From Tubulanus polymorphus (Eukaryota > Nemertea > Palaeonemertea > Tubulaniformes > Tubulanidae): a stretch of 64,000 nucleotides of DNA. Below the pieces are notes generated by a model, which did not search any database, had not been told where the DNA came from, and saw nothing but the letters and a program-made list of their open reading frames with translations. A program made the position numbers and the translations under genes. Positions 35,201-38,200 of this stretch are shown in pieces; position 1 is the stretch's first letter; each line of letters opens with the position of its first letter. The stretch covers positions 21,112,001 to 21,176,000 of the forward strand of contig NC_134025.1 in the NCBI RefSeq assembly GCF_964204645.1, in the 5' to 3' direction.

Positions 35201-38200
35201 GGCTTCAAAGAAACACGGGATCTTTTGAATAATAACGGAGATTCTCGTGGCATGTACTGGAGAGGGAGGCAGGTTACAACAGATTTTTCTCATTTTGTAA
35301 TTGCGATATGAAATTACCCTTAGATAAATGACAGAGTTGAATATGTCTGCCGTTGATATTTTTCATTCTGCGATAATAATTTAGCCCATTTGGCTATGAC
35401 TGGCACACGTTGGCCTGCCCATCTAGGTTGTCCCTAAACTGGTAGATGAAATGAACTGGCCCCGTTACTCATATCCTTAGGTCTCGGTCAAGATTTGACT
35501 AGAGTTAAAGGATTTGACACTATCTTTTTCACTATTGTGTCAACGTGGGACAAGGTGCTGTAGTCTTCTACGAACTCGTTGAAATTCTCAAGTTCAATCG
35601 ATTTTGGCAACACAGGATAATCATCGAAACAGGCAATTTTACAGGGATCAAGGGAAATATAAAGAAGCAGGTAGTCTACTACAGGATGCGTTGAACATAC
35701 GTGAAAAAACGCTAGGCGAGGAACACCCGGCAGTGAGTTCTAAGATGCTCTCAAAAAAGCATACAGATGATAATCACCTCAATTTCCCTCTTGTCTCGCT
35801 CTTTTATCCTTTGTCGTGTCCGATACAGACTATAATCAGGCGCAATCATCATTCGACGAATCTGCAACGATGTTGCCGTATTTGTTATGAAGTAAACCAA
35901 GTAGTCGTAGTTAGACGGTTGAATAGCATAAGGCTAGATCGTGTAAGCTGCTGGCAATAGGTTTGATCACATCAAATTTGTAACGTTTAAAATTGAATGT
36001 GGCTGATAACGTAACTAGTTGATTTGTTATGTACGTATCTTCTACCTCTACATTATCCGAAGCCGTATTATTAAACTATTAAGAAGATATAATTCACTTG
36101 GTCGATGTGAATAGCATTACACGTATATCCAGAGTTAACTTTACAACAGTACCTCAGAACTTGACATTTCTTCGTGCTTTAAGATATATCGCAATAATTT
36201 AACCGGGCTTATGAACTGTTGCAGATTTGTCGATGATTTTTTTTCAGGTTATGGTAGTTTTGCTTAAATCACGGTCGCCACTTTCGTCTTTTCTATCGGT
36301 GTCTTCAAACGAACGAGTTCATTACCTTTGGAAAAACGACGGATCTCGTTTGAAGGCGTCGATGAATTGTTGGAAGTTTTGAAAATTGCTGTCGGCCCAT
36401 CCTTTGGTCTTTGTCGTTTGTCTAAGCGCGCACACACCTCAACCAACTGGGGCCCGGATGTTTTGGGTTAACTGTTTTTCTTATCTATCTTTGTATATGC
36501 ATTTTTTTCTGTTGGCTATTATTTCAGAGACCAAGGCAAATATAAAGAAGCTGCTAATTTATTAAACGATGCTTTGGGCATCCGGGAAAAAACCCTCGGA
36601 CATGACCATCCCGCAGTGAGTTACAAATACATAAAATGCTAATCGTAGTAGTGTTCGAAGCATGTAGAAAATTAGAAAAAATACAGGTTATTTATCGTAT
36701 AATATGTTGATATCCGCTGATTGCGCAATTTGTAGTTATCGTTCATTAAACCCAACGCACTACGCAAATTGATACAAGTGAAACAAGACAGTGTTTACTG
36801 TTGCTTTCAGCGAAATGGCTTATTGTTCTTCCTTTAATTAAACAAATGAGTGGATCTCCATGCAGAAAATGTATCACTTTATCCCCTACTTCTCTAGAAA
36901 AGGAAAAATTAGCCATGATCACACAAACGTTTTTGGGCCGAATCGGGCAGTCGCTCTGGTCGCGGCCAGTTTGACCCGGGCCAAATCATCTTCGTGTGCG
37001 ATCACAGCTAAAGATGCATTTCAACTCAGATATTGAGTCAATGCAAGCATGTAATGATAATGAAATATTGCGCAATCATTGGATGATGGACATTATATAT
37101 TCGCATGTAGTTCATTTACACATTTAGTAAATTCCCTTCCTCGTAAAGATTTGAACCTGATACATTACAGCAGATTGAAATCCCGCGCTATAAGGCCCAA
37201 TGCGCAGCTTTAGTCACAGGTGAAGATATCGTCAGAACCCAATCAGAAATGACATGTTTTATTTCGTCAACTATTTCACAGTTGGTAGAGCAAGTACTGC
37301 GGGATCATTTGTTTATTTCGTCTGAATAAAATCCCGGGGCCTGTTGCTCATTAGTTGGTTGAAACTCGACCGGTGAACACCAATCAGTGGTGACAATGAA
37401 GATTTATTTGTCATTATATCTGCTGGTTAATTTCAACCAACTTTTTAGCAAGTTGCCCCTGATTTTTCAACCCCCACCCCCTGTACACAAGCATACTTTT
37501 TCCAGTTCCCCTTGCGTACAGTCTCTGTACTAAGTTTCAGGTTCTGAATTACGAAACACAATCAAGTGATATATATTTGCTTGCTGTTCAACATTTCATC
37601 GAATACCTGTTCCTTATCACTTGCCGTATATAGTCATGTTCTGTGAAAGCTTGTCATCGGAAGCTGAACATCATCGCTCGCTAAAGGGCAATGAATAAGA
37701 TTAATAATCTGAATTTATTGAGCGTAAAACCATACAGAATCGGCTCATTGGCTGTACGTGATCATTATATAGATGCAAAGAGAAAACTTTTGCGAGCTTT
37801 ATTGAAGGAATAATTATTATGAAATTTGATTTGAAAAGCTCGATTGATAGAGTAGATGAAGCAAAATATGATATTGAATGCGCTTATGCATATCTTAAAA
37901 ATGCCACCCTTCTGTACAGATCTGCACGCATCTGTACCCCTTACCTCTGCACCCCTATTGTGCGTGCGTACATAATAATGATCCCTGTAGACGTGGTCCA
38001 TGCATTTTGGTATGGTGATGCTTCTGACTAATTGGTCGACCTGGGAGAAGAATTCTTATGATTGCGCAATCTCGACGTCATCAGGTTTGAATCTATACGA
38101 GGCAGAATGACTAATCATTCGAAGCTATCTGCGGAAAGACGATTTGAATTTTCCGAAATTAGAAAACGGTCTTACCCAGCACCGACAATTTTGCATGTCA

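Follow-up and report, generated by a model that had tools for sequence, protein, structure and literature searches.

A probable mutually exclusive exon pair in TPR2 of the kinesin light chain gene of the nemertean Tubulanus polymorphus

The sole kinesin light chain (KLC) gene of Tubulanus polymorphus contains two adjacent homologous exons, 5A and 5B, and the best explanation of them, which is considered quite probable, is that they form a mutually exclusive tandem-duplicated pair whose effect is to swap part of TPR2. This reading is carried by the anatomy of the pair, by its frame logic, by the presence of both exon types in related phyla and by mollusc isoforms that differ only in these exons. 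The pair is real and conserved, is one of two in the gene and is probably a working one.

The KLC gene and its exons

The window analysed here is a 64 kb stretch of one contig of the T. polymorphus genome (267.8 Mb in 77 contigs). In a protein search, the closest protein to the gene within it is the kinesin light chain-like isoform X1 of the same species, whose 692 residues are reproduced exactly by splicing the window exons with 5B and 8A. Combining tblastn of X1 on the window with this exact splicing gives a span of at least 26203-58074 on the + strand. The coiled coil, acidic LFP-like linker and six-TPR domain characteristic of the KLC family are all present, as is orthology to it; in the PDB, the best matches are to KLC1 and KLC2. 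One genome search points to a single copy of KLC; its other matches, on C10 and C2, were rejected as a second KLC gene, being TPR matches of only 25-44% identity. In tblastn of X1 against the window, neither a further copy of exon 5 or 8 beyond the two of each nor a duplicate of any other KLC exon was found. The exons, in the numbering of this analysis and placed by tblastn and splicing to X1 unless otherwise described, are as follows.

26203..26267, + strand, first coding exon of X1 (tblastn; edge from exact splicing)
31816..32059, + strand, exon 1, coiled coil
32506..32745, + strand, exon 2
33269..33359, + strand, exon 3, acidic linker with LGFPEDDDD
34152..34380, + strand, exon 4, TPR1 and TPR2 helix A
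35645..35732, + strand, exon 5A, putative alternative TPR2 helix B (88 nt, GT-AG, pyrimidine-poor acceptor; A type in mollusc and annelid proteins)
36528..36615, + strand, exon 5B, standard TPR2 helix B (88 nt, GT-AG; present in Tubulanus X1)
39069..39170, + strand, exon 6, TPR3
40097..40180, + strand, exon 7, TPR4 helix A
40845..40934, + strand, exon 8A, TPR4 helix B to the start of TPR5 (90 nt, phase 0; present in X1)
41979..42068, + strand, exon 8B, putative alternative of 8A (90 nt, phase 0; 26 of 30 residues as in 8A; 8B type in molluscs, Lineus and Lamellibrachia)
44201..44300, + strand, exon 9, TPR5
44990..45039, + strand, exon 10
45148..45221, + strand, exon 11
46031..46139, + strand, exon 12, TPR6
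47076..47330, + strand, exon 13, C-terminal region
52362..52480, + strand, C-terminal exon of X1 (tblastn and splicing; donor edge read from sequence)
57046..57106, + strand, C-terminal exon of X1 (tblastn and splicing; acceptor edge read from sequence)
57997..58074, + strand, last coding exon of X1, with the stop

Upstream of exon 2 lies a further AG acceptor at 32455, possibly an alternative one; inclusion of the stretch 32455-32505 would add 17 in-frame residues that are missing from X1. Read-through of the exon 13 donor (47331-47342) gives a short alternative C-terminus, VSI followed by a stop at 47342, which would replace the exons at 52362, 57046 and 57997. The query proteins of two of the protein searches described below carried the additional 17 residues of exon 2 relative to X1, and ended at the 47342 stop.

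Sequence and reading frame of the 5A/5B pair

The original prediction of two 88-nt exons at these positions, of identical phase and with good splice sites (intact GT-AG), as alternative copies of the KLC TPR2 segment is borne out, as are the exon 4 end at 34380, the exon 6 start at 39069 and the identity of the copies at 23 of 29 residues. At the nucleotide level 65 of 88 positions are identical, with identical donors (GTGAGT) and AG at both acceptors; 19 codons differ, 13 of them synonymously and six by replacement. An ungapped scan of both strands of the 64 kb returned 5A and 5B as mutual best matches at 65/88, the next best being 41 for 5A and 47 for 5B, where the positional mean is 22 (sd 4.1). 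That the duplication is an assembly or haplotype artefact was also considered, and no point in favour of this was found. The two exons have diverged at 23 of 88 bases (26%), mostly silently, and both types occur in molluscs and annelids; this level of divergence, together with the existence of the A type in other phyla, excludes an artefact in practice.

Joining exon 4 to exon 6 through either 5A or 5B alone leaves the KLC frame open. As had been foreseen, including both copies gives ...HPA RPRQI* and including neither gives ...LVY RLRLL*, each with a stop at the sixth codon. Both pairs in this gene consist, as expected of mutually exclusive exons, of neighbouring homologous exons matched in length and phase (88 and 88 nt, 90 and 90 nt), and for 5A/5B double use or double skipping is in addition non-functional by frame. 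As both errors yield an early stop, the reading frame serves as a backstop and not as the switch. It is proposed that one of 5A and 5B is spliced in at a time, and that transcripts with both or neither, carrying an early stop, should be degraded by nonsense-mediated decay.

With regard to the choice itself, the acceptor of 5A has a lower pyrimidine content than that of 5B (44% versus 69%), which would fit 5B being the default and 5A a regulated form. The introns separating the copies, of 795 nt between 5A and 5B and 1044 nt between 8A and 8B, argue against a steric block. Scans of inverted repeats and intron-intron duplexes for a selector RNA structure yielded nothing convincing, with one of 15 intron-end pairs at z -2.96 (30 shuffles each).

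The weak acceptor tract is also what would be expected if 5A were a decaying or unused duplicate in Tubulanus, the pair working in molluscs. Likewise, neither the 5A nor the 8B sequence of Tubulanus occurs in any of the 250 proteins fetched for comparison, among which X1, with 5B and 8A, was the one Tubulanus protein compared (its cluster comprises five sequences), and serine 276 of 5A (KLC1 numbering) is unique among the A-type segments fetched. Nevertheless, the frame of 5A is intact, its length is correct and its donor is that of 5B; moreover, it has kept the diagnostic A residues 275G and 279Q, and its divergence is mostly silent. An unused 5A is consequently regarded as quite unlikely, and the reading preferred here infers the use of 5A and of 8B in Tubulanus.

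A second tandem pair, 8A/8B

The original prediction was right as to 5A/5B and overlooked a second tandem pair, 8A/8B, in the same gene. These copies are identical at 62 of 90 nt and 26 of 30 residues, 16 codons differing silently and four by replacement. Each is 90 nt long and in phase 0, such that the use of both or neither leaves the frame intact and no frame enforcement is found at this pair. Nine species have single models containing both 8a and 8b: Crassostrea virginica, Magallana gigas, Mytilus edulis, M. coruscus, Pinctada imbricata, Patella caerulea, Nucella lapillus, Elysia crispata and the annelid Lamellibrachia satsuma. This implies that 8A/8B may be less strict than 5A/5B. A tandem of 8A and 8B would duplicate the outer helix without the full inner one, and would be expected to fold poorly. 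Used singly, the two exons would swap the outer helix of TPR4 independently of exon 5, giving up to four versions of the TPR domain.

A palindromic dispersed repeat of approximately 220 bases lies at 40272-40488, in the intron before 8A; it has at least 82 matches in its own genome (E <= 0.001), at many places on both strands. A related stretch is found after 8B, at 42489-42563, in the opposite orientation to the repeat before 8A. Around exon 8, the longest pair of inverted sequences (40387-40461 with 42489-42563) overlaps this many-copy repeat, and was not counted.

Both exon types in other animals

Three protein searches, with the best 120 of thousands of matches taken from each, gave 250 different proteins. 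A KLC TPR2 segment was recognisable in 219 of these, the remaining 31 being different kinds of TPR protein. Type B was defined by alanine 275 with asparagine 279, and type A by glycine 275. Among the fetched proteins 168 segments are of type B, including 74 with N269, which are the arthropod and chordate segments and alike contig sequences. Type A is present in 53 of the 219 proteins, comprising 41 of the lophotrochozoan type, 11 of the echinoderm type and one from a choanoflagellate. No A type from arthropods or chordates was present among the proteins fetched as the best 120 of each search.

A and B types are found in separate KLC proteins of 13 mollusc species, most of these proteins being computed models. 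In 14 of 14 equal-length A/B pairs chosen from 11 mollusc species all differences fall inside exon 5, always at 275, 279, 283 and 291 and sometimes at 271 or 292; in molluscs, therefore, each version is found in otherwise identical proteins of a single species. Eight pairs chosen for exon 8 have no differences beyond exons 5 and 8, and Mytilus edulis, M. galloprovincialis, Ostrea edulis and Crassostrea virginica each have all four combinations of A or B with 8a or 8b in separate proteins. Short contigs, the longest of 2,841, 4,278 and 4,507 bases, encode 526-642 KLC residues with the combinations A+8b, B+8a and B+8b (P0117, P0073 and P0116); these would represent spliced transcripts, because the stretch from exon 4 to exon 9 alone covers 10 kb in Tubulanus. 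Exclusive use of 5A and 5B is well supported by these relatives.

Among annelids, Owenia has an A-type KLC protein. The Lamellibrachia model P0036 contains an odd stretch before its B segment which, read one base further on, gives an exon-5-like peptide. This matches the oyster A type at 20 of 27 positions, where 100 shuffled peptides reached 15 at best and 9 on average; with the B type as target the match is also 20, but even the best reading obtained in this way keeps glycine 275 and misses asparagine 279. The stretch is probably an A exon. Both types thus recur in molluscs and annelids, which together with the nemertean makes three phyla. The proposal that other invertebrate KLC genes would contain a second version holds at the protein level, in the 13 mollusc species, the genomic exons analysed being those of Tubulanus.

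Both exon-5 copies occur in four models (P0008, P0036, P0044 and P0070), and in none of the four is the join clean, the two copies being linked through intron-like sequence or a change of frame, or one of them being cut. This is as expected if clean joining gives a stop, although it is weak evidence, since databases seldom list truncated products. The stops that follow from using both or neither, and the length of 88 nt in both copies, would equally suit a poison-exon switch, in which deliberate double use or skipping lowers the level of KLC and the protein difference is minor. For a pure off-switch the type-specific A and B residues kept across phyla would be needless, and no clean double-use model was seen among the fetched proteins, though decayed transcripts would be under-reported. 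Such a switch is therefore considered improbable.

Age of the pair

It may be that the 5A/5B pair predates Lophotrochozoa. A search aimed at A found echinoderm sequences from Lytechinus, two Diadema, Anneissia, Antedon and one further contig, and all 11 echinoderm-type KLCs fetched, along with that of the choanoflagellate Monosiga, combine G275 with H or Q at 279 (entries P0226, P0228, P0232, P0234, P0235, P0239, P0240, P0244, P0245, P0246, P0249 and P0167). In the best tree of the exon-5 peptide, for 25 chosen rows and 30 columns, all A-like sequences split from all B with a support of 84/83, which is not decisive. A duplication inside Lophotrochozoa was not rejected by this 30-column tree (p 0.21); arrangements with lophotrochozoan A alone as a clade (p 0.04), or with lophotrochozoan A plus echinoderms without Monosiga (p 0.02), fit less well. 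The presence of G269 in both lophotrochozoan A and B counts against an old origin, as do the non-rejected duplication inside Lophotrochozoa and the fact that the echinoderm sequences come from a search directed at A. The furthest-reaching hypothesis, that the A/B pair predates the protostome-deuterostome split, with lophotrochozoans having kept both, echinoderms an A-like version and arthropods and chordates B, is doubtful. If true, it would mean that an exon-level TPR code of kinesin-1 existed in the bilaterian ancestor and was replaced by four KLC genes in vertebrates.

Position of the exchanged residues in the TPR domain

KLC1 numbers come from an alignment with human KLC1, in which R266, N301 and N302, as named in PMC6214655, were the reference points for counting. 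The 3' end of exon 4 supplies the first two bases of the R266 codon; exon 5 extends from the third base of this codon to A295, and exon 8 from 358 to 387. Helix positions were taken from a structure model of the Patella A-type protein, with a mean pLDDT of 67.5 overall and ten-residue means of 83-94 across TPR2 to TPR5, which places TPR2 helix B at 271-289 and the next helix from 294. The 5A/5B changes had been predicted to cluster around TPR2 helix B and the following loop, and this is where they lie: 275, 276, 279 and 283 are on the outer helix, alpha-4, and 291-292 are in the turn. Three of the four helix positions are spaced by four; the changes are on one side of the outer TPR2 helix. In exon 8, the Tubulanus copies differ at 360, 367, 370 and 371, on TPR4 helix B, and are identical over 372 to 387; in molluscs, differences between the copies extend to the turn and to 381 or 384, where the inner helix of TPR5 begins.

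It had further been suggested that the swap acts directly on the cargo groove, for which no direct support was found. The inner helices A form the lining of the groove (PMC3314626), while the residues exchanged by exon 5 belong to the outer helix B. Among 16 KLC residues contacting JIP1 or TorsinA peptides, taken from PMC6214655, exon 5 holds only R266 and exon 8 only N386; both are the same in either copy, and no changed Tubulanus position is among these named contacts, so that direct groove contact by the 5A/5B swap is not supported. There are nevertheless several points of proximity. The R266 codon is completed by the first base of exon 5, and substitution of this residue by serine has a very strong effect on JIP1 binding (PMC6214655). 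The tryptophan of the W-acidic peptide of SKIP occupies an induced pocket between TPR2 and TPR3 (PMC6214655, PMC5642895), and secondary contacts to the peptide come from a few residues of alpha-4, -6, -8 and -10. Position 271, four before 275, is in our own repeat alignment the TPR2 counterpart of the TPR3 pocket residue Y313, and is F in some oyster A exons, though Y in both Tubulanus copies. Finally, the mollusc exon-8 differences at 381, and sometimes 384, are beside the groove residues K382, T383 and N386 (PMC3314626), a region in which the Tubulanus exon-8 copies are identical. On balance, direct action on the groove seems unlikely.

An indirect effect of the 5A/5B swap on the TPR2/TPR3 pocket is possible. 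Choosing A would exchange the side of the outer TPR2 helix formed by 275, 279 and 283, with 276 in addition in Tubulanus, as well as the turn at 291-292, and would keep the named contacts. The likeliest consequence would be a shift in the packing of TPR2 against TPR3, and thereby in the pocket that the two repeats form when an adaptor binds; that tuning of this pocket is the main effect is put forward tentatively. Alternatively, the swap could affect how the edge of the TPR domain docks to the heavy chain when the motor is inactive, a state in which one TPR domain binds the heavy chain via interhelical turns (PMC13371920).

Relation to known systems and implications

The kind of system described here, mutually exclusive exons, is already known, and frame-enforced pairs of this type are common in human (PMC5740500). 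In comparison with the human mutually exclusive tandem-duplicated exons of that catalogue, the main text of which contains no mention of KLC or kinesin light, the Tubulanus gene has two independent pairs within one TPR domain. The same light chain is diversified in vertebrates through the paralogues KLC1-4 and through splicing at the C-terminus, a region that varies considerably between isoforms (PMC6214655); in Tubulanus, by contrast, one gene would vary the TPR domain itself through its choice of exons. Extra KLC genes have been named in C. elegans and Aedes, the Aedes KLC paper dealing with gene duplicates and the MAJIQ paper with mammalian Klc1. A single TPR residue, N343 in KLC1 and S328 in KLC2, decides adaptor choice (PMC3314626); that switch is in the groove, on the TPR4 inner helix, in contrast to the exon-5 changes of Tubulanus on TPR2 helix B.

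The original prediction held TPR swapping in KLC to be new. In agreement with this, no description of mutually exclusive exons in the KLC TPR domain was found, by title or start of abstract, among the matches listed from the open-licence literature, and excerpts of PMC9741552 and PMC9013439 lack the terms sought. Against it, mollusc KLC models in public databases, mostly computed, already hold both exon-5 and both exon-8 types.

Kinesin-1 moves many cargoes with one or few light chains, which raises the question of how it chooses among them. Provided that the pairs are in use, two independent TPR swaps have been kept for several hundred million years in molluscs, annelids and nemerteans. From one KLC gene, several forms of the cargo-binding domain can probably be produced, with matching versions in molluscs and annelids. 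Isoforms that differ at four to six residues, on one helix side and the adjoining turn, offer a ready-made test of the outer face of the TPR solenoid, namely of whether this face, beside the well-studied groove, controls adaptor binding or motor inhibition. Should the outer face prove controlling, the groove-only view of KLC specificity would need amending.
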